From Rhodothermales bacterium (lineage in GTDB: Bacteria; Bacteroidota; Rhodothermia; Rhodothermales; UBA10348): a stretch of DNA of 32,256 nt. The DNA lies in NCBI GenBank assembly GCA_040221055.1, contig JAVJVN010000009.1, positions 1 through 32,256 of the forward strand, in the 5' to 3' direction. How positions within the stretch are numbered: position 1 is the first letter of the stretch; each line of letters begins with the position of its first letter. The notes under the pieces were generated by a model that worked only from the letters and a program-made list of their open reading frames with translations, searched no databases and was not told the origin of the DNA. A program made the translations under genes and the position numbers. Below are positions 996 through 32,256 of this stretch, piece by piece.

Positions 996-2054
996 TCATC
1001 CGCGTCCTGACAGCACGCGAGCAGCATCCCCGACACGCGTATTGCCGGTCAGCACACTGGCCAGGATTTCGCCCGTGAGTGCCCCGAACTTGAAGGAATG
1101 CCCCGATCCTCCGTAAAAATGGAGGCCCATTGGCGTTTCGCGGAGTTGGAAGCGGCTGTCTTCCTGGACGGCGTACCAACACGCGCGACCTGCCAGAATC
1201 CCGGGACCGGTCGGGTCGGCAATGCGGCTGCGGTACAAGTGCCCGAGTTCATCCAGTTCCTTACTGGAAACCTCTCGACTGTCGTCTGGCGATCCGGACC
1301 GGGAGAAGGTATGCATGCCGATTTTCCAGGGAGTACCGGCCACACCCGGCACGACGTATAGTCCACCCCGTTCGTCGAGGTCCAGGATCATGGGGTATGC
1401 TCCATCCGGGTGGCTCGCAATTCCGGCCCAGGAAGGCCGTTCCTGTAGATATCCGATGACTTGCCTGGAGGGAATCACGTCGGGCATGTGCGTCCAGGCC
1501 CCCGTGCACCACAACGTTGTTTGGTCCGACGGGAGATGCTCGGGAATGATGCGGCGGTTTTCCTGGATGTCCACGCCGGTTTGCCGGGCCAATATCGCCA
1601 GGTCCTCGAGGATACGATCTGCGAGCAGGATGCCCCCACCCGGAGCGTAGAGTGCGTCGTCCTGATGGTCCAGCAGGATCCAGGGAAACCGCTCCCTGAG
1701 GGCTCCCGCGGGGAGAGCTTCAACGGTCAGGCCGAGTCGGCGCAGGGACTTCACCGAATGATGGATCCATTTGGAGCCCTTGAAACCGACGGCGAGCGTA
1801 CCGGTCGGGACGTACCGCGAGATTCCGGTCTGCTCCCACAGGCGGTCCCACGCGCGGTACGCGTCCACTACAAGTTGGGCATATCCGTGACGATCCCCGT
1901 ACGTATGTCGAATGAGACGATGGGCATCATGACTGGACGATGCCGGGTTCGGGATGGGCCCTTGGTCGTACAACGTGACCGACATTCCCATTCTTCTGGC
2001 CTGGACGGCCGTCGACAGGCCGTGGATTCCGGCGCCGACAATGGAAACCTTCAT
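996..2054 (-). CDS. FAD-dependent amine oxidase, monomeric sarcosine/pipecolate oxidase-like
   Basis: A 352-residue flavoprotein of the DAO fold. The N-terminal dinucleotide-binding motif GAGIHGLS is at residues 7-14. Three later features match the monomeric sarcosine oxidase/N-methyltryptophan oxidase/pipecolate oxidase family: Lys244 in WKIGMH, where that family has its oxygen-activating lysine; Cys292 in RACWYA, where it has the covalent flavin cysteine; and GGSGHSFKF (315-323), the usual C-terminal FAD-contact motif. It should therefore oxidise a secondary amino acid (N-methyl amino acid, pipecolate or proline analogue) with oxygen, giving an imine and peroxide. It is the last gene of the minus-strand operon and its ATG overlaps the stop of the OCD-family gene by 4 bases. 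The exact substrate is not known; family assignment is firm, the substrate class inferred. Confidence 0.82.
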   Translation of the reverse strand: MKVSIVGAGIHGLSTAVQARRMGMSVTLYDQGPIPNPASSSHDAHRLIRHTYGDRHGYAQLVVDAYRAWDRLWEQTGISRYVPTGTLAVGFKGSKWIHHSVKSLRRLGLTVEALPAGALRERFPWILLDHQDDALYAPGGGILLADRILEDLAILARQTGVDIQENRRIIPEHLPSDQTTLWCTGAWTHMPDVIPSRQVIGYLQERPSWAGIASHPDGAYPMILDLDERGGLYVVPGVAGTPWKIGMHTFSRSGSPDDSREVSSKELDELGHLYRSRIADPTGPGILAGRACWYAVQEDSRFQLRETPMGLHFYGGSGHSFKFGALTGEILASVLTGNTRVGDAARVLSGRG

Positions 2055-2995
2055 GGCAGCTGCTGGAAAACCAGTGAGGCGGCAACCAGATCTTCGAGCG
2101 CATTTCCCACCGACTTGAAAACGGTAATCTCAGAGCGATCCTGTCGGCCGATGTGGCCACCGGAACACAGGTCGAACAAGTCCGCCTGGATATGGTTGGG
2201 CCCTATGGCGTGTTCATGGACAGCCTGAATTACGTCTCCAGCCTCGCTCAACGCTGCGTTGCGTTCATCCACGAACAAGCTGCTGGCGGCCATCAGGGCC
2301 GAATCGGATTCGCGCATGTCGGGGGTGAAGGCTCCCACAAGGTCAACGTGCGCTCCCGGACGGACATCCCGCAAGGTGATGAGTGGTTCCCTGCTCAGGG
2401 TTGCGGCACAAATGATATCGGATTCACCGATGGCTTGGTAAAGGTCCCGTACCACGTGGATTTCTTTGGCCCATCCGGACGAACGCACTTCAGAAGCCAG
2501 TTCTTCTGCCCGGTCGGGTGTCCGATTCCAGAGCAGGATCCGCGTTACGGGACGTACGTGGGCATGCGCAGAAATCAATGGCCCGGCCATCCGTCCGGCA
2601 CCGATCATGAGCAGCGTTCCGGCGTCCGGTGCGGACAGGAAGGACGAAGCCAGGGCAGACGTTGCCGCCGTGCGCAGTCGTGTCAGGGCGTCGGCCGCCA
2701 TCACCGCCAAACGTTCACCGGTAGCCCGGTCCAGGAGTACATAGGTCGCCTGTACCGAAGGGCGTTGATCCGGAAATATGGTCGCAATCTTGACGCCGAG
2801 ATGGGTTCCCCATGACGGCATGGCGAGAAGGTGCCCTCCCGGAATCCGGAACGCAGCCCGGGTGGGTTGGCCGTGTGTGGATAATGCACTGGAAGGCGAC
2901 GATGTACGCTGCTCGGCGAAGGCCAAGCGGAGTGCCGGCACGAGCGTCTCCCATGAAAGCCGGGCTGCTACCTCGTCATCCGTCAGAACGGTCAT
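2051..2995 (-). CDS. Ornithine cyclodeaminase/mu-crystallin family reductase
   Basis: A 314-residue NAD(P)-dependent enzyme of the OCD/mu-crystallin family. Visible signatures are Lys69 in LGVKIAT (substrate carboxylate binding in the family), Arg108 in RLRTAATSA, the Rossmann motif IGAGRMAG (131-138), and FKSVGNALEDL (293-303). Where true ornithine cyclodeaminases have a catalytic Asp in a GGDCPGK-like segment, this protein has VGAFTPDMRE (220-229), the form seen in ketimine/imine reductases and Δ1-pyrroline-2-carboxylate reductases. I therefore favour reduction of a cyclic imino acid (Δ1-pyrroline- or Δ1-piperideine-2-carboxylate) over deamination. The ATG follows the porin stop codon with no spacing, and the gene overlaps the downstream oxidase by 4 bases, so translation is probably coupled. 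Alanine dehydrogenase-type activity remains possible. Confidence 0.8.
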   Translation of the reverse strand: MTVLTDDEVAARLSWETLVPALRLAFAEQRTSSPSSALSTHGQPTRAAFRIPGGHLLAMPSWGTHLGVKIATIFPDQRPSVQATYVLLDRATGERLAVMAADALTRLRTAATSALASSFLSAPDAGTLLMIGAGRMAGPLISAHAHVRPVTRILLWNRTPDRAEELASEVRSSGWAKEIHVVRDLYQAIGESDIICAATLSREPLITLRDVRPGAHVDLVGAFTPDMRESDSALMAASSLFVDERNAALSEAGDVIQAVHEHAIGPNHIQADLFDLCSGGHIGRQDRSEITVFKSVGNALEDLVAASLVFQQLP

Positions 2996-3967
2996 TCAAA
3001 ACGATACGATCATGGTCATCCGGGCAATGACCTCAGGATTATCGTCAATGTCATCCTTGGACCAGATGACGTTCGGAACGAACTGGATTCCGGATTCCGG
3101 GACAAAAGCAAAGCCTGCCGTCACCCAGGTATTCCGGACGGTCGGAGTTTCGAATACGTCCACCCGGCCAATCAGACGTTTCGAATCCGAGACGGCATGA
3201 CGGGCGAAGACCGAAATGCCGGTGCGCTGCAGGTCGCCGGGAGCCGCGTCAATGGTGCGTACCGAATGGAATGCTTCGATTCCGACGTTGGTCCCTCCGG
3301 ACGTATATCCAATGAAGCCATTCACGTCCATCTGGGATCCATCCGCCCGGTCTGCAAAGGAGCTGCCCAGGGTGCCGTGAAAACGCTCGCCGGGTTTGAA
3401 TTCCAGTTGACCGTAGACCTTCTTGTACTTGTCATCCTCCGGCGAAACACTGGTATTGCCGGCGACCATGACGGAATAACGCACGGATGGCAGGCGTCCC
3501 AACGGCCCGGAAAGCTTGACGCCCTGATCCCGGGACGAGGAGATGCCAGCGCGATCCTGAATGGTCTTCTCAAGTCCCCGATACCCCCATTGGGCCTCCG
3601 ATATACCGAATACAGGGGGTGGAGAAAGACCCATCGTCAGGTTGTGACCTTCACCGATCGCATTTTTCCAAACGAGGAAAAGGTCCTTGACGAAGGGGGT
3701 CTGGGGACCGCTTCCATTCAATCGACTGCCCGCTCCGTCGAGACGCAATCGACCCGAGAAACGATCCGACTTCACGAAATCGGCTGTCAGATAGGCCCTC
3801 CGGTACTGGAAGGCATTCTCACCATCCGATGTGCCATCCGGCGAGGTGATGGTGTAGGCGTAATCGGCGTAGATCAGGCCGCTGAGTCGGACGGAATCCT
3901 GCGCGCGCAGTTGCAAGGCACTGCACGCCAACAGGATACCGCCAAGGGCCAGAAGGCGGTGTAACAT
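2996..3967 (-). CDS. Porin-like outer-membrane beta-barrel protein
   Basis: Predicted secreted protein of 323 residues. It starts with a basic-hydrophobic signal peptide (MLHRLLALGG..., likely cut after LRA near residue 22). The mature part consists of alternating-polarity strands with Gly/aromatic turns and ends in MIVSF, with the terminal Phe typical of proteins inserted by the BAM machinery. The segment VFGISEAQWGYRGLEKTIQDR-type region, around residues 100-120, resembles phosphate-selective porin/OprP-like proteins of Bacteroidota. It probably forms a diffusion channel for the substrate handled by the flanking enzymes. The chosen ATG at 3967 gives a clean signal peptide; an in-frame ATG at 3997 would add ten residues. 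Both lie inside an inverted repeat. An LLAC sequence at residues 12-15 looks like a weak lipobox, but a lipoprotein is less likely. Confidence 0.75.
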   Translation of the reverse strand: MLHRLLALGGILLACSALQLRAQDSVRLSGLIYADYAYTITSPDGTSDGENAFQYRRAYLTADFVKSDRFSGRLRLDGAGSRLNGSGPQTPFVKDLFLVWKNAIGEGHNLTMGLSPPPVFGISEAQWGYRGLEKTIQDRAGISSSRDQGVKLSGPLGRLPSVRYSVMVAGNTSVSPEDDKYKKVYGQLEFKPGERFHGTLGSSFADRADGSQMDVNGFIGYTSGGTNVGIEAFHSVRTIDAAPGDLQRTGISVFARHAVSDSKRLIGRVDVFETPTVRNTWVTAGFAFVPESGIQFVPNVIWSKDDIDDNPEVIARMTMIVSF

Positions 3968-4010
3968 GGAAGGTTGGCTGTTTGGCTGCGGCGCCATGTT
4001 ACGCAACCTT
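3961..4010 (-). promoter_or_regulatory. Interleaved inverted repeats over the porin start
   Basis: A perfect 9-bp inverted repeat pairs 3961-3969 (GTAACATGG) with 3994-4002 (CCATGTTAC). A second perfect 7-bp repeat pairs 3970-3976 (AAGGTTG) with 4004-4010 (CAACCTT). The arms interleave, so in the mRNA they form either a pseudoknot or two alternative hairpins. Both possible ATG codons of the porin (3967 and 3997) lie in opposite arms of the 9-bp stem. This could control translation initiation; a function is inferred only. Confidence 0.4.
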
Positions 4011-4031
4011 GAACACTTCTGCGAATGTACC

Positions 4032-5531
4032 TCAGTCTTCCACGTTGTCAATCTGGGCTTTCTGCAAGCGACCGCTGTAGTCCACATACACGGTTTTCGT
4101 CTCGGTATAGAAGTCAAAGACTTCCCAGCCGCCCTCACGATGGCCGTTACCGGTAGCCTTGACGCCCCCGAACGGCATATGGGCCTCGGCGCCGATGGTC
4201 GGCCCGTTGATGTAGGTGATTCCGGCCTCGATGTCGTGCATGGCCTTGAAAGCCGTGGAAACGTCGTTCGTGTAGATGGCGGAGGACAGACCGTACTCCA
4301 CATTGTTGGCGACCGCGATGGCTTCCTCGTAATCCTTGATCTTGATCACCGACAGAACCGGGCCGAAGATTTCCTCGCGCGCCACGCGCATGTCCGGAGT
4401 AACACCGGTGAGAATGGTGGGCTTGAAGAAGAACCCGTCCGCAAGCGCGCCATCCGTAGCACGGTTGCCACCCGTCAGGATCGTGGCGCCTTCTTCTTTT
4501 GCAACGCCCATGTAATACTCGATCTTGTCCATCCCTTTCTGGTTGATGACGGGGCCCATCTGCGTGGATGCGTCATTGCCGTAACCGATGACCAGGGCTT
4601 CGGCCTGCTTCTTCAGGCGGCCAACCAGTTCATCATGCAGGCTTTCATGCACGATCAGTCTGGATGTCGCCGTGCATCGCTGGCCGGTCGTACCGAACGC
4701 TCCCCAGACCAGTCCATCAAGGACCAGGTCGAGGTTGGCGTCTGCCAAAACGATGGCTGGATTCTTTCCGCCCATCTCCAGGGACAATCGCTTGTGCATG
4801 CGACCACAGGCCTCACCGATCCGGGACCCTGTTTCGGACGATCCTGTGAAGGAGACTGCGTCCACGTCCGGATGCTCAACGAGCGCCCGGCCAGCCGTAC
4901 CGGCTCCCTGGACCAGATTGAGTACGCCAGGTGGCACGCCCGCATCGGACATGATCTTGACCAGGAGGGCGCCGGAGTTCGGGGCGTCTTCGCTGGGCTT
5001 GAAGACGACCGTATTCCCCGCGGCAAGTGCCGGAAACATCTTCCACGTGGGCACGGCAACCGGGAAATTCCACGCAGTTATGACGCCGATAACCCCGATG
5101 GGGCGACGGATGCTCATGTTGAACTTGTTCGGGAGCTCGCTGGGTACCGTGTGCCCGAACAGCCGACGCGTTTCCGTAGCCGCGTAGTAAGCCGTGTCGA
5201 TGGCTTCCTGGACATCACCCTTGGTTTCAAAGAACGGTTTCCCCATTTCGCGGGTCATCTGGAACGCCAACTGGCTCTTGCGCTCCGTAAGGAGGTCGCC
5301 AATCCGCCGCAGGATGTCGCCGCGGGCCGGGGCGGGCATGCGACTCCAACTCCGGAAAGCTTTCCGTGCCGCTCGGACCGCATCGTCCACATCCTCGACC
5401 CCCGATTCCGGAAACTGACCGATCACGTCGCTGTGGATGGCCGGATTGATGTCCTTGAATGTTTTGCCGGTGGAGCCGTCTTGCCAGACGCCGTCAATGA
5501 AGTTCTGGGTGAGTACGTCGTTCATGGTCAT
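4032..5531 (-). CDS. NAD(P)-dependent aldehyde dehydrogenase
   Basis: A 499-residue soluble aldehyde dehydrogenase of normal family length. The catalytic set is complete: Asn155 in TAWNFP, Lys178 in FKPSE, Glu252 in LEMGGKNP and the nucleophile Cys286 in GQRCTATS. The NAD-binding glycine segment FTGSSETGS is at 228-236. The C-terminal stretch PTIGAEAHMPFGG followed by TGNGHREGG resembles the uncharacterised AldH-like group and, more distantly, aminoadipate-semialdehyde dehydrogenases. It oxidises an aldehyde or semialdehyde to the acid. It is the first gene of the minus-strand operon, 64 bases ahead of the porin, so its substrate is probably the semialdehyde formed after the flavin oxidase opens or dealkylates its amine. 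A second ATG two codons downstream is an alternative start; neither has a Shine-Dalgarno sequence. Confidence 0.88.
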   Translation of the reverse strand: MTMNDVLTQNFIDGVWQDGSTGKTFKDINPAIHSDVIGQFPESGVEDVDDAVRAARKAFRSWSRMPAPARGDILRRIGDLLTERKSQLAFQMTREMGKPFFETKGDVQEAIDTAYYAATETRRLFGHTVPSELPNKFNMSIRRPIGVIGVITAWNFPVAVPTWKMFPALAAGNTVVFKPSEDAPNSGALLVKIMSDAGVPPGVLNLVQGAGTAGRALVEHPDVDAVSFTGSSETGSRIGEACGRMHKRLSLEMGGKNPAIVLADANLDLVLDGLVWGAFGTTGQRCTATSRLIVHESLHDELVGRLKKQAEALVIGYGNDASTQMGPVINQKGMDKIEYYMGVAKEEGATILTGGNRATDGALADGFFFKPTILTGVTPDMRVAREEIFGPVLSVIKIKDYEEAIAVANNVEYGLSSAIYTNDVSTAFKAMHDIEAGITYINGPTIGAEAHMPFGGVKATGNGHREGGWEVFDFYTETKTVYVDYSGRLQKAQIDNVED

Positions 5532-19572: not shown

Positions 19573-20805
19573 ATGTTCGAAAAAACCATACTTGAGAATG
19601 GCGTCCGCGTCCTGACGGAGCGCATCCCTTCGGTCCGAAGCATCAGCATCGGAGCCTGGGTCGGGGTGGGCAGCCGGCATGAGCATGAAGATGAGGGGGG
19701 GATCTGTCACTTCATCGAACACATGGTGTTCAAGGGCACGATCCATCGCCGCATGCATCATATTGCCCAACGGATGGAGAACGTGGGCGGCTACCTGAAT
19801 GCCTTCACCTCGAAAGAGTACACGTGTTTCTATGCCCGCGCACTCGATGAGCACCTGCCGCGCGCCATCGATACCGTGTGTGACTTGGTTCTGTATCCGT
19901 CCCTGCCTGAAAAAGAGATCGAACGCGAAAAAGACGTCGTGATCGAGGAAATGCGAATGTATGACGATACCCCCGAGGATCGCATCTTCGACCTCGTGGA
20001 CACGGTGGTCTACCCGGATCACGCCATGGGCCGACCGGTGATCGGGCGGGAGGATACGGTCCGATCCATGACGCGGGACGGGCTGTCGGGATTCATGGAC
20101 CGGAATTTCGTGCCAAACCGGATGGTCATTGCCGTGGCCGGCAATGTGGATCATGCGCGTACGGTCAAACTGGTCGAAAAGGTGTTCCGGAAATCGGACC
20201 GGCGGCCCGTATCGCCGGAAATCATCCCGGTCCCGTCGACCGCTCCGGCACGTACGCTTATTGACCAACGGCCCGTCCAACAGGCCCATCTGGTACTTGC
20301 GTCTCGGGCCTATCACGTACACGATCCCCGGCGGGCTGCACTTTCGGTGCTCAATACCCTGCTGGGTGGAGGCATGTCCAGCCGATTGAACCAGAACATC
20401 CGTGAGAAATACGGCTATTGCTACAATATTTACTCCTATGTGAACCTGCACTCGGACGCGGGTGACTTCGGTGTCTACATGGGTACGGATGCCAAGCACA
20501 TTGATCACGCGGAAAGACTCATTTTCCGGGAATTGGACAAGCTGGCCCAGAAGCCGGTCTCCGAACGGATGCTTGAACGGTCGAAAAGTCAGGTGAAAGG
20601 CGGTATCATGCTCGGCCTGGAAAGCATGGGAAGCCGGATGATGCGGATTGGTCGACAGGAATTGTATTACGATGCCTATTTTTCTCTCGATGAAATACTT
20701 GAAATGATCGATACGGTGACGGTGGACGACGTTCGCAGCGTTGCCGAGGATCTTTTCGGAAGGGATCGTTTCTCAACCGTGCGACTCATTCCCCAATCAG
20801 CATGA
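19573..20805 (+). CDS. M16 family zinc metallopeptidase
   Basis: A 410-residue peptidase of the M16B (processing-peptidase-like) group. The inverted zinc motif HFIEH is at residues 46-50 and the third ligand is a glutamate at about 125-126 in VIEEMRMYDDTPED. The C-terminal half holds the second, inactive M16 domain with GGGMSSRLNQNIREKYGYCYNIYSY-type substrate-binding residues (around 268-290). It degrades or processes peptides or small proteins, usually in the cytosol; no signal peptide is visible. Linkage of such a peptidase to pnp is common in many bacteria. The stop overlaps the epimerase start by 4 bases, beginning an eleven-gene run. Upstream, only the pnp terminator and an AT-rich stretch are seen; no clear promoter. 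Confidence 0.9.
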   Translation: MFEKTILENGVRVLTERIPSVRSISIGAWVGVGSRHEHEDEGGICHFIEHMVFKGTIHRRMHHIAQRMENVGGYLNAFTSKEYTCFYARALDEHLPRAIDTVCDLVLYPSLPEKEIEREKDVVIEEMRMYDDTPEDRIFDLVDTVVYPDHAMGRPVIGREDTVRSMTRDGLSGFMDRNFVPNRMVIAVAGNVDHARTVKLVEKVFRKSDRRPVSPEIIPVPSTAPARTLIDQRPVQQAHLVLASRAYHVHDPRRAALSVLNTLLGGGMSSRLNQNIREKYGYCYNIYSYVNLHSDAGDFGVYMGTDAKHIDHAERLIFRELDKLAQKPVSERMLERSKSQVKGGIMLGLESMGSRMMRIGRQELYYDAYFSLDEILEMIDTVTVDDVRSVAEDLFGRDRFSTVRLIPQSA

Positions 20806-23146: not shown

Positions 23147-25448
<2,302 letters not shown>

Positions 25449-25449
25449 C

Positions 25450-26562
25450 GTGGCGGTCCTCGTTTCATCCCTTGCGGATATCCAATGGCTGACCGGTTTC
25501 ACCGGATCGAACGGGATCTGTCTGGTGCTTGGCCAGGAGTCGTTCCTTTTCACGGATGGACGCTATCGTGATCAGGCCGAGCAGGAAGTCCGGGAATTCC
25601 GGGAGATTCAGGCACACCGGTTCAGGAGTGTCCAAGATCAGCCGACCACGGCTGCTGGAGGTACCCCTGCGCAGACAGGGACGGTGCACGTGAGGATCGT
25701 GTCGGGCTCCTTGATTGCTGCGGTCGGGGACCTCTGTCGGGAGCGGATTGACCTTCGGAAGGACGTGCTGCGTTTCCAGGCGGATCACCTGACCGTTGCC
25801 GATTACGATGCCCTCGTGCTGGCACTTCCCGATTCCCGTCTTGAGGGCGTCTCAGGACTGCTCAACCGTGCGCGCGCTCTGAAGTCCGATGACGATCTGG
25901 GTGCGCTGAAGCGCGCTCTTGCGCTGAGTGAGACCGTTTTCGAAGCCGTACTCGGCATCGTGAAGGAAGGGATGACGGAGTTGGATCTGGCCGCCGAAAT
26001 CGACTATCGTCAGAAGATGGCGGGCGCGAGTCGGTCCTCCTTCGAAACCATCGTGGCATCCGGTCCCAACAGTGCCTTGCCGCACGCCCGACCCGGGACG
26101 ACGCGACTCGCGCCCCACACGCCCGTCCTGGTGGACTTTGGATGCGTCCTGGACGGATGGTGCAGCGACATGACCCGGATGTTCTGCCTGGGAGAGCCGC
26201 CCGCCGACTTCCTTTCGGCCTATACGATCGTGGATCAGGCGCGTGCGTCCGCCGTCATCCAGGCCCGTGCCGGCATGACCTCCCGTGAATTGGATGCGGT
26301 GGCTCGGGATGTCATTGCGCACGCCGGAATGGACGATGCGTTCTCGCACTCCCTCGGACACGGACTCGGTACGGAAGTCCACGAATGGCCACCGGTCTCT
26401 TTCCGCTCGGAGACCGTACTGCCTGCTGGCAGTGTCGTTACTGTCGAACCCGGCGTGTATTTTCCCGGACGGTATGGTATCCGGATAGAAGACACCGTAC
26501 GACTGGGCCCGGGACCCGCTGAACGCCTGAATCGACTGTCCACCGAACTCTTCATCGTGTAG
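25450..26562 (+). CDS. M24 family aminopeptidase (Xaa-Pro dipeptidase-like)
   Basis: A 370-residue metallopeptidase with the creatinase N-domain and a pita-bread catalytic domain. The five metal ligands are present: Asp229 in VLVDFG, Asp240 in CSDMTRMF, His304 in SLGHGLGTEVHEWP, Glu333 in TVEPGVY and Glu347 in RIEDTV. It removes N-terminal residues before proline or cleaves Xaa-Pro dipeptides. The GTG at 25450, one base after the guaB stop, gives an N-terminus (AVLVSSLADIQWLTGFTG) about 15 residues shorter than usual; an earlier TTG inside guaB could restore part of the first helix. It also has a linker around residues 60-82 that is longer than common. No signal peptide is seen. Confidence 0.87.
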   Translation: MAVLVSSLADIQWLTGFTGSNGICLVLGQESFLFTDGRYRDQAEQEVREFREIQAHRFRSVQDQPTTAAGGTPAQTGTVHVRIVSGSLIAAVGDLCRERIDLRKDVLRFQADHLTVADYDALVLALPDSRLEGVSGLLNRARALKSDDDLGALKRALALSETVFEAVLGIVKEGMTELDLAAEIDYRQKMAGASRSSFETIVASGPNSALPHARPGTTRLAPHTPVLVDFGCVLDGWCSDMTRMFCLGEPPADFLSAYTIVDQARASAVIQARAGMTSRELDAVARDVIAHAGMDDAFSHSLGHGLGTEVHEWPPVSFRSETVLPAGSVVTVEPGVYFPGRYGIRIEDTVRLGPGPAERLNRLSTELFIV

Positions 26563-26565
26563 CTC

Positions 26566-27258
26566 ATGTCCGACGCCAAGCGCATGTCCGATTCTTTCGT
26601 GCCGTTCAGTCACCCTCTCGGCGACCTGGATAACAGTGAGCGATCCCGACGTGCGTCAGCTTTCCATACGTTGATGGCTGGGCGCCGGACGGTGCGTGAA
26701 TTTGCGTCCACGCCGGTGCCCGAGGACATCATTGCAACCTGTATTCGTGCCGCCGGAACCGCACCGTCCGGCGCCCACAAGCAACCGTGGCATTTTGCAG
26801 CCATTTCCAGTCCGGCGCTGAAGTCGGAAATCAGACAAGCAGCCGAGGAAGAGGAAGCATCCTTTTACGATCACCGTGCACCAGACGAATGGCTCAAGGC
26901 ACTCCAACCGTTTGGCACGAACGCGGACAAACCGTTCCTGGAAATCGCACCTTGGCTGATTGCCATTTTCGCCAGACCTTTCGATGTACTGCCGGACGGG
27001 ACGCGGTCAAAGAACTACTACGTCCAGGAGTCCGTCGGTATTGCCACCGGTCTGTTGATTGCAGCCTTGCACAACGCCGGTCTGTCCACGCTGACCCACA
27101 CGCCCAGTCCCATGGGCTTCCTGAACGATCTGTTGGGACGGCCATCGCACGAACGGGCCACCATCCTGCTCGTCGTGGGCCATGCCGCAGACCATGCCCG
27201 GGTGCCGATGCTGGATCGCAACCCGCTTGATCAGATCGCCTCCTTCCATGGCACATGA
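26566..27258 (+). CDS. Nitroreductase-fold flavoprotein, iodotyrosine deiodinase-like
   Basis: A 230-residue FMN enzyme of the nitroreductase superfamily. The FMN site has RRTVREF (40-46) and TAPSGAHKQPW (65-75). The lid segment EEEASFYDHRAPDEW holds Glu97 and Tyr101, and Lys122 follows 21 residues after Tyr101. This Glu-x3-Tyr-x20-Lys arrangement is the substrate-zwitterion clamp of iodotyrosine deiodinase. The region ending GLLIAALHNAGLSTLTHTP and the tail with LDQI also match that family. It may reductively dehalogenate halotyrosines, as shown for some bacterial homologs, or reduce another phenolic amino acid. It starts 3 bases after the peptidase gene, and its 3' end overlaps the glycosyltransferase by 11 bases. 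Met7 is an alternative start. Confidence 0.82.
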   Translation: MSDAKRMSDSFVPFSHPLGDLDNSERSRRASAFHTLMAGRRTVREFASTPVPEDIIATCIRAAGTAPSGAHKQPWHFAAISSPALKSEIRQAAEEEEASFYDHRAPDEWLKALQPFGTNADKPFLEIAPWLIAIFARPFDVLPDGTRSKNYYVQESVGIATGLLIAALHNAGLSTLTHTPSPMGFLNDLLGRPSHERATILLVVGHAADHARVPMLDRNPLDQIASFHGT

Positions 27259-28570
27259 TCGTCCATTGCGGGTCCTGGTGCTGGCCTACTATTTTCCTCC
27301 CATGGGGTTGAGCGGTGTCCAGAGAATTGCGAAGCTCGTCAAATATTTGCCTGAAAATGGCGTGGACGTCACCGTTCTTACCGTACATCCGGGGGCCTAT
27401 TTCGCATTCGATGAGACGCTGGAAGCAGAGGTGAATGCTTCGGGAGCGACGATCGTGCGAACCCGGTCATTGGATCCGACCCAATGGATGGGTGGCCGGC
27501 GGACCGTCGGGCTGCCAGCGGAGTCCCGTCGCAGCAGGCTGAGCAGAGCCGCAGAGTGGATATTCCAACCGGACAACAAGATCGGTTGGTATCCGTTTGC
27601 CGTTAAAGAGGGGAGGAGGATACTGGACCGGACGCCTCATGATCTGATTTATGCGACCGCTCCGCCCTACACGTCGCTGCTCGTCGGGGCTCACCTCGCT
27701 CGTGCCTGTTCTCTGCCGTTGGTCCTGGATTTCAGGGATGACTGGGTTGGCAATCCGCGACACACGTACCCGACGGAGTGGCATAAGCAATTCGCCGTCC
27801 GGATGGAGGGTCGCGTGTTGGAGCAGGCAGAACGCATCCATGTCGTAAACCGCCTGATTGGCGACCAACTGGCGACGCGGCATCCTGGTGCTTCCGATCG
27901 CATATTTGTAGTGCCACAAGGGTTTGACCCCGATGACTTCGCGTCGGACGTGCATGCACAGTCCTCTGTCGAAACGCGCGATGATCATCTTCCGGATGCA
28001 ACATGCACGTTCCTGTACTCGGGAATATTCTACGATGTCCAGCGCCCCGACGTCTTCCTGCGTGCATTCGCCGCCGCATGCGCGGCGTCCCCTGCGTTCC
28101 GTCGCGACGCCCGCGCCCGTTTCGCGGGGCTCGTGCCACCCCACATGGACCGCCTGGTCGGTGAATTGGGCATCGCCCCGCAGGTCGAGGTGTTGGGCTA
28201 CCTGGACCACGACGCAGTGGTCAGGAACCAATTGGATGCCGATGTCCTGTGGATGACGATCGGTCGTCGTGTGGGCAGCGAAGGCATCTCCACCGGCAAG
28301 CTGTATGAGTATCTGGGGGCAGGAAAACCCATCCTGGGGTTGGTTCCGGAGGGTGTCGCGAGAGAGACGCTGGAAGCGAGTGGTATCGGGTACGTATGCG
28401 ATCCGGATTCCGTTGAGGAGGTGGCTGCCATGCTGTTGCGGCTCTTCGGGTTATGGCAGGAACACCGTCTTCCCGGTCCGGCTCCCGCAACGTTTCTGGA
28501 AACCTACAATCGATGCGAGCAAGCCCGGCAAATGGCCCATATATTCCAGTCGTTGGTTCCTTTCACCTGA
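27248..28570 (+). CDS. GT-B glycosyltransferase (family 4-like)
   Basis: A 440-residue glycosyltransferase. The N-terminal Rossmann half begins VLVLAYYFPPMGLSGVQR, the acceptor-side glycine loop. The C-terminal half has FLYSGIFYD and the donor-binding segment STGKLYEYLGAGKPILGLVPEG, a variant of the EX7E motif. No transmembrane segment is evident, so it acts at the cytosolic face. It probably adds a sugar to a lipid-linked or surface-glycan acceptor and could use the nucleotide sugar produced by the epimerase of the same run. The ATG at 27248 lies inside the end of the deiodinase-like gene (11-base overlap); a longer reading from 27182 is not supported. A C-terminal domain past residue 400 is variable. 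Confidence 0.82.
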   Translation: MAHDRPLRVLVLAYYFPPMGLSGVQRIAKLVKYLPENGVDVTVLTVHPGAYFAFDETLEAEVNASGATIVRTRSLDPTQWMGGRRTVGLPAESRRSRLSRAAEWIFQPDNKIGWYPFAVKEGRRILDRTPHDLIYATAPPYTSLLVGAHLARACSLPLVLDFRDDWVGNPRHTYPTEWHKQFAVRMEGRVLEQAERIHVVNRLIGDQLATRHPGASDRIFVVPQGFDPDDFASDVHAQSSVETRDDHLPDATCTFLYSGIFYDVQRPDVFLRAFAAACAASPAFRRDARARFAGLVPPHMDRLVGELGIAPQVEVLGYLDHDAVVRNQLDADVLWMTIGRRVGSEGISTGKLYEYLGAGKPILGLVPEGVARETLEASGIGYVCDPDSVEEVAAMLLRLFGLWQEHRLPGPAPATFLETYNRCEQARQMAHIFQSLVPFT

Positions 28571-28580
28571 TTTCACGCCT

Positions 28581-28991
28581 GTGCCGACCCCGAATCGCCT
28601 GGATTTGACCATACACAGCAATTTCGACGACCTCGAGCGGGTGGTTGATGAGACGGAGTCGTTCTTTTCGGCGCTTTCAGACGACGGGGACTTCGTGTAC
28701 ACCGCGGTACTGTTGGCGAGCGAAGCTGCCACAAACTCCATAGAGCACGGCAACAAGCTCGACCCGGCGCGGATGGTCCGGATTTCCTATGAGGTCCATG
28801 GACCCTCGGTTGAGATGCACTTCGAGGATGAAGGCTCCGGATTCAATCGTGCCGATATTCCCGATCCGCTTTCAGACGAAAACATACTTGACGACGGCGG
28901 AAGAGGCATTTTCCTGATCGAGCGACTGGCTGATGCCGTCCGATATGAGAATGGAGGCCGACGTGTCGTCATCGTTCTGACCAGAAAGTAG
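28581..28991 (+). CDS. RsbW-like serine kinase / anti-sigma regulatory ATPase
   Basis: A 136-residue single-domain GHKL ATPase. The N box is LASEAATNSIEHGNK (45-59) with Glu48, Asn52 and His56; the G1 box is DEGSGFN (83-89); the second glycine box is GGRGIFLIERLAD (106-118). Such proteins bind and inhibit a sigma factor and phosphorylate an anti-anti-sigma partner, or act downstream of a PP2C phosphatase. Neither a sigma factor nor a STAS protein is encoded nearby, so the partner lies elsewhere. The GTG at 28581 gives a normal-length protein; no good ribosome-binding site is visible. It is 10 bases after the glycosyltransferase and 2 before the next gene. Confidence 0.85.
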   Translation: MPTPNRLDLTIHSNFDDLERVVDETESFFSALSDDGDFVYTAVLLASEAATNSIEHGNKLDPARMVRISYEVHGPSVEMHFEDEGSGFNRADIPDPLSDENILDDGGRGIFLIERLADAVRYENGGRRVVIVLTRK

Positions 28992-28993
28992 GC

Positions 28994-30922
28994 GTGCCCG
29001 GGAAAGGAGCTGCAGCGTCCAACAGGGCCATCGTCCTCTCTGGACTGTACAGTGTCGCCGCCATGGCGCTGGTTGTCGGTGCGACACGCAAAGAGTGGTT
29101 CCTGATATTCGTGGCGTCTGCCCTTGCCATGCTGTTCATCCAGATTTGGATGTGGCAAACCGATGCGCTGGATTGGAAGGGGATAGCCCTGCTGGCGATT
29201 CTGGTGCGTCTGGTGGCCCTTCCGGTTCCACCGGTGCTTTCGGATGATGCTTATCGGTACATCTGGGATGGAATGGTGAACCTTGAGGGCATGAATCCTT
29301 TCCTGTTGGTGCCCAGTGATCCTTCGCTGCGCTTCCTGCACGATGCCGCGGTCTATCCACTCATCAACCGACCCGATGTCCACTCTGTCTATCCACCGGT
29401 CTCCCAAGCCCTTTTCACGGCGGCAGCGGCCATAGGGGGAGAGTCATGGACCCGCGCATTTCTCGCGCTGAAGTCCATTGCGGTCCTGCTTGAGATGTTT
29501 GGACTGTACCTGTTGTCCCGCATAGCCAGGGAGCGTTCCGTCATGTTGCTTGCATTGAGTCCGGTTCTGCTGGTGGCTGGAGCTGTACAGGGCCATACCG
29601 ACATTCTTCTCGTCGCACTGTTCGGCGGAGCGTTGTGGGCCTGGCAGCGGAATTACCGCGTGACCACCATCGGTATCCTGACGCTGGCCGGCTGGGTGAA
29701 GTTGTGGCCCTTGTTGTTCGTGGTCACATTCCTTATCCATCTCTCGAAGGAAGATCCGAAAGTGGCTTTCCGTGGCGCGGTGTTGACGGTCGCGATGACC
29801 GTGTTGTTGTGGATGCCTTTCATGCACAGAGCGGTTCCGGGACATATCCTTGAATCGCTGGACCTTTATGTGCGGTGGTTTGAGTTCAATGCCGGCCCGT
29901 ACTACATCGTTAAGGAGTGGTACTGGTGGACCACCGGGATGGATTGGTCCAAGCAGATTGGTCCTGCATTCCGCCTGCTGTTCCTGATCGGTACGGCGTT
30001 CATCTGGTTGCTGCAGTTGGTCCAGGCTCGTCGCTTGGCGTTCGTGGTTTCCGCGCCGGATAATCAGCCGTGGTTCCTGTGCTGGGTCATAACCTGTGCG
30101 TACTTCCTTCTCTCGACGACCATCCATCCCTGGTACATCGTAGGATTGGTGGTCCTGGGTATGGTCCTGTTCGAGGACCGGATTCCCTGGCACATCCTGG
30201 TATTCAGTGTCCTGTCGTTCGGAACGTACCTGTTGTATGTGGGCGGGCCGTACTGGTGGACCGTTGCACTTTCCTGGACCGGAGCCGCTGCTGTATGGAT
30301 GTGGCTGCAGGCCACCGGCCGCCGGACAGGTTGGATGGACACCATCCTGCGTTGGCGGGCATGGGGCAAGATGCTGTTGATGCGTCCCTGGGTGTTTCCA
30401 GATTTCGCCGTGGCAGGGGAGAGGATCCTCGATCTCGGTGGCGCTGAAGGATACGTTGCCGATGCTGTACTGGACCGATTTCCGGGCTGGGACAGGGCTG
30501 CTGTTGTTGATATCCGACCCGCCGGTCGGACGTCGAATGAACACCACGTGTACGATGGAATCGTACTCCCCATGGATGACGAATCCTATGGCTTAGTAAT
30601 ATTGTCGTACGTTTTGCACCATTCCAGCCATCCAGAGCGTGTTCTGTCCGAAGCCCTTCGCGTTTGTGCAGGTCGTGTCGTCATTCTCGAGTCGGTTTAC
30701 CGCTCTTCATATTCCCTGCGGTGGCTTCGCTTTGCGGACCACCTTGCGAATGCGGTCCGATCCAGGGGGGAAATGAGCCGGCATGCGGATAGCCTCAATC
30801 ATCGTCGGGAGGACGAATGGGTCGACGCGGCCCGTGAGCTCGGGGGCGTGGTTGTCGGAAGGCGAACAGTCGTGCGACCCGGGCACGTAACCGCAGTCCT
30901 CGTCATCGCGAAGAAGCGATGA
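28994..30922 (+). CDS. GT-C membrane glycosyltransferase fused to a SAM methyltransferase
   Basis: A 642-residue protein with two parts. Residues about 10-450 contain about eleven hydrophobic helices. The loop SDDAYRYIWDG (83-93), with its acidic pair, matches polyprenyl-phosphate-sugar-dependent mannosyltransferases of the GT-C fold, so this half should transfer a lipid-linked sugar at the outer face of the inner membrane. Residues about 470-642 form a class I methyltransferase: ILDLGGAEG (478-486) is the SAM motif, followed by DIRPAGR, LPMDDESYGLVILSYVLHH and ALRVCAGRVVILES. The frame is continuous with no sign of a join error. It starts with GTG 2 bases after the ATPase gene and ends overlapping miaA by 20 bases on the opposite strand. 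Acceptor and methylated group are unknown. Confidence 0.8.
   Translation: MPGKGAAASNRAIVLSGLYSVAAMALVVGATRKEWFLIFVASALAMLFIQIWMWQTDALDWKGIALLAILVRLVALPVPPVLSDDAYRYIWDGMVNLEGMNPFLLVPSDPSLRFLHDAAVYPLINRPDVHSVYPPVSQALFTAAAAIGGESWTRAFLALKSIAVLLEMFGLYLLSRIARERSVMLLALSPVLLVAGAVQGHTDILLVALFGGALWAWQRNYRVTTIGILTLAGWVKLWPLLFVVTFLIHLSKEDPKVAFRGAVLTVAMTVLLWMPFMHRAVPGHILESLDLYVRWFEFNAGPYYIVKEWYWWTTGMDWSKQIGPAFRLLFLIGTAFIWLLQLVQARRLAFVVSAPDNQPWFLCWVITCAYFLLSTTIHPWYIVGLVVLGMVLFEDRIPWHILVFSVLSFGTYLLYVGGPYWWTVALSWTGAAAVWMWLQATGRRTGWMDTILRWRAWGKMLLMRPWVFPDFAVAGERILDLGGAEGYVADAVLDRFPGWDRAAVVDIRPAGRTSNEHHVYDGIVLPMDDESYGLVILSYVLHHSSHPERVLSEALRVCAGRVVILESVYRSSYSLRWLRFADHLANAVRSRGEMSRHADSLNHRREDEWVDAARELGGVVVGRRTVVRPGHVTAVLVIAKKR
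30903..30922. other. Palindromic convergent stop region
   Basis: TCATCGC (30903-30909) and GCGATGA (30916-30922) form a perfect 7-bp inverted repeat around six bases. Each arm ends in the TGA stop of one of the two convergent genes (plus-strand stop 30920-30922, minus-strand stop 30905-30903), so the 20-base gene overlap is the hairpin itself. No T-tract follows on either strand. Confidence 0.6.
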
Positions 30923-31832
30923 TGTCCAGGCGCTCGTCCATGGAGAGCGCATCGGTATCGATCCAGATGGCTCCATCCAACTTGCGGAACCAGGTCAACT
31001 GTCGCTTTGCGTATCGTCGGGAATTCCGCTTTACCCGTTCGACGGCCGAGGCGAGAGTACATTCACCCCGGACATATGGCAACAGTTCCTGGTAACCGAT
31101 GGTTCGGAGCGGAGCGTCCATCTCGTTGTAGCCCAATGCGTGGAGCCGCTCCACCTCATCAATCAGGCCATCCGACAACATGCGATCGACGCGTTCGTTG
31201 ATGGCGCTGTACAGCCCCGTGCGATCCCTGTGCAGCACAAAGACCTGGTACTGGAATGCGGGTTCTTCATGCTCGTGGAAGAAAGACGAGAGCGGTCGTC
31301 CGGTAGCCGTCCAGACTTCCAATCCCCGGACAATTCGCTGGGTTTTGGTCGCGTCGAGCGTGGCTGCGTACGCAGGATCCACATCGGATAGTTCTACATA
31401 AAGCGTTGCCGCCCCTTCATTTACCAGTCGTGAATTGAGGTGACTTCTGATATCAGGCGGCACCTTGGGCGTTCGACCAATGCCGTTCACGAGGGCCGAC
31501 AGGTACAGGGTCGATCCACCTACGACCACAGGAAGGCGCCCGGCATAAAGGATGGATCGGATGAGCGTTTCCGCATGATTCTTGAACGCCCCAGCGGACC
31601 AGGTTTCATCCAGGGACATTCCACCGGTGAAGTGGTGAACAATCCCGTCCATCTCGGAGGCCGTCGGCTTGGCTGTTCCGATTGCCAGATCGTCGTAAAC
31701 CTGACGACTGTCACATGAAATGACTTCGCCGGGGCCATCTTGGAGAGTCGCACTGCGATGCGCGAGCTTGACCGCCGTCTCGGTTTTGCCCACGGCGGTC
31801 GGTCCCGTAATGACTGGTATGCGTTCAGACAT
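30903..31832 (-). CDS. miaA: tRNA dimethylallyltransferase
   Basis: MiaA transfers a dimethylallyl group to N6 of A37 in tRNAs reading UNN codons. The P-loop GPTAVGKT is at residues 10-17, and CDSRQVYDDLAIGTAKP (about 40-56) holds the catalytic Asp41. GGSTLYLSALVNG and KTQRIVRGLEV follow. The length, 309 residues from the ATG at 31832, is normal; an upstream in-frame ATG at 31868 would add 12 residues and lies deeper in the recombinase gene. The first 8 bases overlap the end of the recombinase gene, so miaA may be transcribed from that gene's promoter. It converges with the glycosyltransferase-methyltransferase gene. Confidence 0.94.
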   Translation of the reverse strand: MSERIPVITGPTAVGKTETAVKLAHRSATLQDGPGEVISCDSRQVYDDLAIGTAKPTASEMDGIVHHFTGGMSLDETWSAGAFKNHAETLIRSILYAGRLPVVVGGSTLYLSALVNGIGRTPKVPPDIRSHLNSRLVNEGAATLYVELSDVDPAYAATLDATKTQRIVRGLEVWTATGRPLSSFFHEHEEPAFQYQVFVLHRDRTGLYSAINERVDRMLSDGLIDEVERLHALGYNEMDAPLRTIGYQELLPYVRGECTLASAVERVKRNSRRYAKRQLTWFRKLDGAIWIDTDALSMDERLDIIASSR

Positions 31833-32256
31833 CCAGGTACGTGCCGGACGAATCATCCGGGCGGGCATGTGAATACTTGCTGGTAGTAGTCAGGGATTTG
31901 TGCCCCAGGGTTTCTTTCACGAGATGCGTCGGCGCACCCCGGTCCATGGCATGGGAAGCGTGGGCGTGCCGTAGCCAATGAGGAGACACGTCTTTATCGA
32001 TTCCTGCGGCCTTTGTGGCCGACTTCACAATACGCCACATCTGTTGACGGCTCAGGTTGCCGCCATGGGACGACCGGAATACCGGGTCCGGCGATCGTCC
32101 GAATCCGTCCGCAAGTTCGCGTTGACGCAATTCCATCAAATCCTTCCAGACAGAAGCTGTAACCAGGACATTCCGTGCTTTTTCGCCTTTCCCGACAACG
32201 GTAATCTGACCGGCCGTTCCTGATGAAGCTCTTCGCTCCGTTACATGCTTCCAGCA
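31825..32256 (-). CDS. Tyrosine recombinase (integrase/Xer family), 5' part outside window
   Basis: The last 143 residues of a site-specific recombinase; the frame is open to the window edge, so the N-terminal DNA-binding domain and the first catalytic arginine are missing from view. Visible catalytic residues are the beta-hairpin lysine in VVGKGEKAR (residues 21-28 of the fragment), His93 and Arg96 in HWLRHAHASH, His119 in LGHKSL and the nucleophile Tyr128 in TTSKYSH. Spacings of 23 from Arg to His and 9 from His to Tyr equal those in XerD. It could be a chromosomal Xer-type enzyme or an integrase. The stop lies inside the miaA start (8-base overlap), unusual for a mobile-element integrase and more in keeping with a resident gene. 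Confidence 0.85.
   Translation of the reverse strand, partial: CWKHVTERRASSGTAGQITVVGKGEKARNVLVTASVWKDLMELRQRELADGFGRSPDPVFRSSHGGNLSRQQMWRIVKSATKAAGIDKDVSPHWLRHAHASHAMDRGAPTHLVKETLGHKSLTTTSKYSHARPDDSSGTYLDV

Follow-up and report, generated by a model that had tools for sequence, protein, structure and literature searches.

The analysed stretch of DNA ("the window") comprises 32,256 nucleotides of contig JAVJVN010000009.1 in the assembly GCA_040221055.1 of a Rhodothermales bacterium. It contains an open reading frame, here termed iyd, that very probably encodes a bacterial iodotyrosine deiodinase (IYD), an FMN flavoprotein predicted to reductively dehalogenate free 3-halotyrosines. The assignment is based on homology, placement, conserved residues, the predicted fold and the gene order, and from characterised IYDs we infer the FMN cofactor, the substrate and the chemistry of the protein. 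The reading frame extends from an ATG at 26566 to the stop codon TGA at 27256-27258. Its start codon follows the stop codon of a pepP-like gene at a distance of 3 nt, and its 3' end is overlapped over 11 nt by the sequence beginning with the ATG of a glycosyltransferase (GT) gene. The locus comprises the following features:

23964..25448, + strand: guaB, IMP dehydrogenase, two genes upstream of iyd (PF00478, 8.7e-163; order -2 in 12 loci)
25450..26562, + strand: pepP-like M24 metallopeptidase, likely start GTG at 25450 (PF00557, 1.5e-60; PF01321, 3.7e-14)
26566..27258, + strand: iyd, putative bacterial iodotyrosine deiodinase / halotyrosine dehalogenase, 230 aa, FMN nitroreductase fold
26758..26778, + strand: TAPSGAH motif, codons 65-71, including Ala70, which aligns with human Ala130
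26854..26868, + strand: Glu97 and Tyr101 of the predicted zwitterion clamp, codons 97-101, within helix 83-103 of the structural model
26929..26931, + strand: Lys122, third residue of the clamp, codon 122
27100..27102, + strand: Thr179, codon 179, aligned with mouse Thr235 / human Thr239
27248..28570, + strand: glycosyltransferase (Glyco_trans_4_4; PF13579, 4.1e-15; order +1 in 11 loci)
28578..28991, + strand: RsbW-like HATPase, next in the conserved block (PF13581, 1.2e-20; order +2 in 9 related loci)

The original prediction had proposed a halotyrosine dehalogenase on account of Glu97, Tyr101 and Lys122, which were said to reproduce the clamp of IYD, together with the peptides TAPSGAH and LLIAALHNAGL. 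Both peptides were found in the translated protein, and the three residues lie at the positions claimed, with a spacing (i, i+4, i+25) identical to that in the aligned mouse IYD row. Across the six frames of the window, 144 stop-to-stop stretches reach 100 aa or more, and the pattern E-x3-Y-x20-K was detected in one of them, namely in the IYD protein itself. The counterparts of the three residues in mouse IYD are presumably Glu153, Tyr157 and Lys178. We take the human equivalent of Ala70 to provide a backbone contact to the substrate phenolate and the mouse and human equivalents of Thr179 to form a hydrogen bond to flavin N5; all mouse and human residue numbers were assigned by counting along the mouse row of the alignment. 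PDB entry titles show that Thr239 of the human enzyme has been the subject of study.

The conservation of these positions was examined in an alignment of 93 rows, consisting of the window protein, 80 loci, the IYD of Haliscomenobacter hydrossis (HhIYD), mouse IYD and ten control nitroreductases. The loci were the best 80 of 120 in the genome collection that encode a relative and had been found via a set of six peptide patterns, two of them overlapping with the clamp. The controls originated from the window's own and related genomes and represent ten of 13 candidate loci: two were dropped as repeat proteins of other controls (L138 and L139, repeating L132 and L136) and a longer, distant member (L137) was left out by choice. 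The Glu/Tyr/Lys triad was present in 83/83 IYD rows and in none of the ten controls, in agreement with the expectation that most nitroreductases lack the clamp; partial clamps occurred in one control with Glu and Tyr but without Lys and in another with Lys alone. The equivalents of Ala70 and Thr179 were likewise each present throughout the 83 IYD rows and missing from all ten controls, so that clamp, Ala and Thr are common to the window protein and to the characterised deiodinases in the alignment, including the bacterial HhIYD. All five residues were also kept in 29/29 loci (L002-L030) from a search that used the whole protein instead of the peptide patterns; these are the best 29 of 43 other IYD genomes in that search and partly overlap the named loci.

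A phmmer search against the sequences of solved structures identified HhIYD as the closest relative (5KO7, E 9.9e-71, 241.2 bits), followed by four mouse and human IYD sequences (E 1e-47 to 2e-46, 162-166 bits), while a distant IYD (6PZ0) was matched at E 2.5e-21 and 79.6 bits. IYDs occupied ranks 1-6 of the 25 PDB sequences, the best non-IYD reaching 44.3 bits. In the IQ-TREE phylogeny of the 93 rows, which does not include the 6PZ0 sequence, one branch (93/82) separates the 83 IYD rows from the ten controls and places the window protein on the side of mouse IYD and HhIYD, and hence not outside the deiodinase clade; this branch, which shows one change in 96% of the bootstrap trees, is not starred, the bootstrap is unsettled and the control branches are long.

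Membership in the Pfam family PF00881 (Nitroreductase; 76.7 bits, passing the gathering score of 23.5) and a weak match to the BluB profile TIGR02476 would also fit an ordinary nitroreductase or a BluB-like flavoprotein in which the resemblance to the clamp is coincidental. Among the NCBIfam profiles no IYD match was obtained and BluB was the best hit; however, its 62.1 bits remained well below the cut-off of 150, IYD chains are far ahead by sequence as well as by fold, and the full clamp was absent from all ten control nitroreductases. We therefore consider this explanation extremely improbable.

The fold comparison relies on a predicted model and not on a solved structure. The AlphaFold2 model, computed from a 30-row alignment, reached a pLDDT of 92.5 and a pTM of 0.88 and bears Glu97 and Tyr101 on the helix formed by residues 83-103. 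Its closest chain was 5KO8_B, HhIYD in complex with iodotyrosine (Z 27.9, 1.2 A, 218 residues aligned, 50% identity). Among the 50 entries listed, IYDs took ranks 1-12 and BluB came next at Z 18.1; in a Foldseek search IYD chains filled ranks 1-25. BluB and general nitroreductases were ruled out as candidate identities by the BluB score below cut-off, the IYD-first matches, the clamp, the tree and the fold. The assignment to the halotyrosine dehalogenase family is thus borne out by the nearest solved relative, the tree, the clamp, the Ala70 and Thr179 positions and the predicted fold, all of which point to IYD.

Among the known systems HhIYD (5KO7, 5KO8, 5KRD) resembles the window protein most extensively, sharing sequence, fold, clamp, Ala/Thr positions and domain extent; both are bacterial, but their sequence identity is only approximately 50%. 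In the tree HhIYD is located beside Bacteroidota rows (nearest L099), whereas the window protein stands beside the rows of its own family, several of which are titled Rhodothermales or Bacteroidetes. According to PDB titles, HhIYD has been solved in complex with iodotyrosine and with 2-iodophenol, and we take HhIYD and bacterial IYDs to be active dehalogenases. The mammalian enzymes (mouse 3GB5, 3GFD, 3GH8, 3TNZ; human 4TTB, 4TTC, 5YAK) have the clamp, the Ala and Thr residues, the TAPSGAH motif and the fold in common with the window protein. Their substrate-bound entries, which are 42-44% identical to it, matched the model with Z 27.6-27.9 and the substrate-free entries with Z 22.9-23.8. The thyroid counterpart is a flavin enzyme that removes iodine from a modified tyrosine. 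Mammalian IYD has an N-terminal membrane anchor; unlike these anchored proteins, the window protein has only about eight residues ahead of the aligned core. The group of 6PZ0, 6Q1B, 6Q1L and 6TYK, presumably from Thermotoga neapolitana, is IYD by name and has the same fold but is much further away (79.6 bits, Z 22.7, 30% identity). BluB and other nitroreductases share the FMN nitroreductase fold, although with Z 18.1 or less, and none of the ten controls, among which there is no BluB by name, has the full clamp.

By analogy with these enzymes, reduced FMN would drive the loss of halide from free 3-halotyrosine, namely of iodide and possibly also of bromide or chloride. Glu97, Tyr101 and Lys122 on the lid would hold the amino acid zwitterion and shut the lid over the flavin, the phenolate would be held by Ala70 and the FMN 2'-hydroxyl, and Thr179 would tune flavin N5 toward dehalogenation chemistry. 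PMC5499721 describes a contact of the substrate phenol with the FMN 2'-hydroxyl in IYD and two proposed mechanisms, one tautomer-driven and one single-electron. Among the papers listed in literature searches, we recognised none that deals with this gene.

A protein of the IYD lineage might nevertheless perform another job, acting on a different tyrosine-like compound or ortho-substituted phenol or catalysing another reduction, with dehalogenation as a side activity. Such a role would be compatible with the IYD orthologue SUP-18 of Caenorhabditis elegans, which acts on a potassium channel according to PMC3930498, with the wide distribution of the carriers, and with a genomic context in which we found nothing that ties IYD to halogen or tyrosine metabolism. 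However, the five tested positions in contact with substrate or flavin, including Thr179, are kept in 83/83 rows, and we regard a different function as unlikely. The 80 named loci bear 13 phylum names, seven of them being without an assigned phylum, and Lake Baikal, a body of fresh water, appears in the title of one. Since carriers are found under so many phylum names and one is titled after a freshwater lake, a marine link does not appear to be specific, and the proposal that the enzyme's role suits a marine bacterium received little support.

With regard to tyrosine metabolism, HPPD (TIGR01263) is present in the window's own genome. Among 60 related genomes, 33 were positive for both IYD and HPPD, 11 for IYD only, 12 for HPPD only and four for neither, so that no association was seen over these genomes (odds ratio 1.0, p 1.0). 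The 45/60 genomes scored as HPPD-positive each gave a match with an E-value of 1e-40 or lower; they include G016, whose match is below the cut-off, and G030, where the match is in two pieces of which one is below it. The homogentisate dioxygenase HmgA (TIGR01015) was found in 0/60 genomes at E 1e-40, yet HPPD occurs in 45/60 of them, an observation that we note separately. The halogenase model PF04820 matched the own genome weakly (26.9 and 21.2 bits); because it also matched five of 14 control genomes, E. coli among them, these matches are uninformative on a link to halogenases.

Within the family the gene order around iyd is conserved. guaB was detected at position -2 and pepP at position -1 in 12/12 loci, with the GT gene at +1 in 11, all on the same strand; one locus (L044) was left out of the upstream counts, as it begins too near IYD to tell. 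The window's genome encodes one IYD and gave one other nitroreductase match. Of the 60 genomes, the own genome included, 44 carry IYD and 16 do not, three members of the window's genus being among the latter; 46 genomes were matched, but G001 and G030 represent weak matches to other nitroreductases and were scored as IYD-negative, and several of the 60 are incomplete, so that some absences may be gaps. In the three genus mates without IYD (G001, G002 and G003; loci L113, L114 and L115) the guaB-pepP-GT order is retained, with pepP directly followed by the GT gene on the same contig. In a tree of guaB, pepP and GT the three group together as the sister clade of the window (100/100). Since they form a single clade, one loss of IYD in the genus is the simplest reading, although a single tree is no proof of a loss as opposed to a gain.

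The window IYD shares 60-72% identity with the IYDs of 11 family loci (L031-L041). Over the same loci identities amounted to 75-82% for guaB and 39-46% for pepP, while those for the GT were 42-61%, the two highest values (54 and 61%) deriving from partial matches. At the sequence level IYD is thus better conserved than either of the two genes that flank it directly, pepP and GT, and the IYD identities in comparison with those of guaB and pepP suggest that it is under firm constraint. Horizontal transfer of the window IYD was also considered, given that by identity its nearest relative is L031 (73%) while the guaB-pepP-GT tree joins the window with the IYD-less genus mates, but this discrepancy was too weak and the idea was dropped.

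It had further been proposed that adjacent peptidases could release halotyrosines from proteins, which IYD would then recycle. One peptidase indeed adjoins iyd, the M24 enzyme ending at 26562, but the plural is wrong as the M16 peptidase (19573-20805) is located seven genes upstream. The stop codon of the M24 gene only 3 nt from the IYD start and the presence of pepP at -1 in all 12 loci that reach this position may seem to indicate such a pathway, as may a tricorn-type S41 protease encoded two to three genes upstream on the same strand in the Lewinellaceae loci L094, L098 and L102. However, guaB-pepP-GT persists without IYD in the three same-genus genomes, the tricorn-type protease is so placed in just 3/68 loci outside the family, and in all three an opposite-strand gene for a TonB-type receptor separates it from IYD; in a fourth locus (L090) the protease is encoded at a distance of five genes and on the opposite strand. 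We know of no preference of M24 aminopeptidases for halotyrosine. Taken together, peptidase-fed recycling has little in its favour and seems very unlikely.

Outside the family the commonest neighbour within two genes of IYD was a formyl transferase (5/68 loci, all Bacteroidota, on the other strand). The 53 direct neighbours on the same strand (gap below 150 bases) in these 68 loci most often belonged to the Pfam families Uma2 and Rhodanese, with three members each, and no halogen, tyrosine or peptidase theme was apparent in the 25 of 66 neighbour families listed. Ten representatives of the neighbours recurring in at least three loci were scanned, comprising the formyl transferase (five loci, the nearest neighbour), the tricorn-type S41 protease, a lyase, the TonB-type receptor, Uma2, a rhodanese, a tetrapyrrole methylase, DUF192, DUF5655 and an ABC ATPase; the tricorn-type protease was the sole peptidase among them. 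Non-recurring single neighbours were partly scanned, and because a simple script was used for calling the neighbouring ORFs, some of these may be spurious.

In the guaB-pepP-iyd-GT string the predicted deiodinase would most simply act as a standalone clean-up enzyme for halogenated free tyrosine. We tentatively suggest, as a possible though rather doubtful role, that the family IYD is a housekeeping repair enzyme clearing oxidatively halogenated free tyrosine independently of any tyrosine-degrading pathway. Bacterial IYDs are known and solved, with no agreed natural substrate or role to our knowledge. The window gene adds a clear member to this already known family and leaves the definition of an IYD unchanged; it also provides a conserved, syntenic example across most of a family together with same-genus absences, which is useful for comparative tests. 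If the suggested role is true, the window's genus, which among the genomes compared has one IYD carrier and three clear-cut natural absences, would be a ready system for finding the role of bacterial IYDs.

Several further observations were made in the window. An ORF at 31825-32139 on the - strand, beside miaA (30906-31868, - strand), matches the C-terminal part of a phage integrase (positions 89-169 of the PF00589 profile), and in four family loci an ORF that recurs at the fourth position downstream of IYD resembles it by eye. The ORF at 28994-30922 (+ strand) joins a weakly matched GT87-like part (25.1 bits against a cut-off of 25) to a C-terminal methyltransferase domain. Finally, a row of genes at 996-5531 on the - strand, which includes a DAO-type FAD oxidoreductase, an ornithine cyclodeaminase/mu-crystallin, an ORF at 2996-4303 and an aldehyde dehydrogenase, looks like an amino acid degradation cluster.
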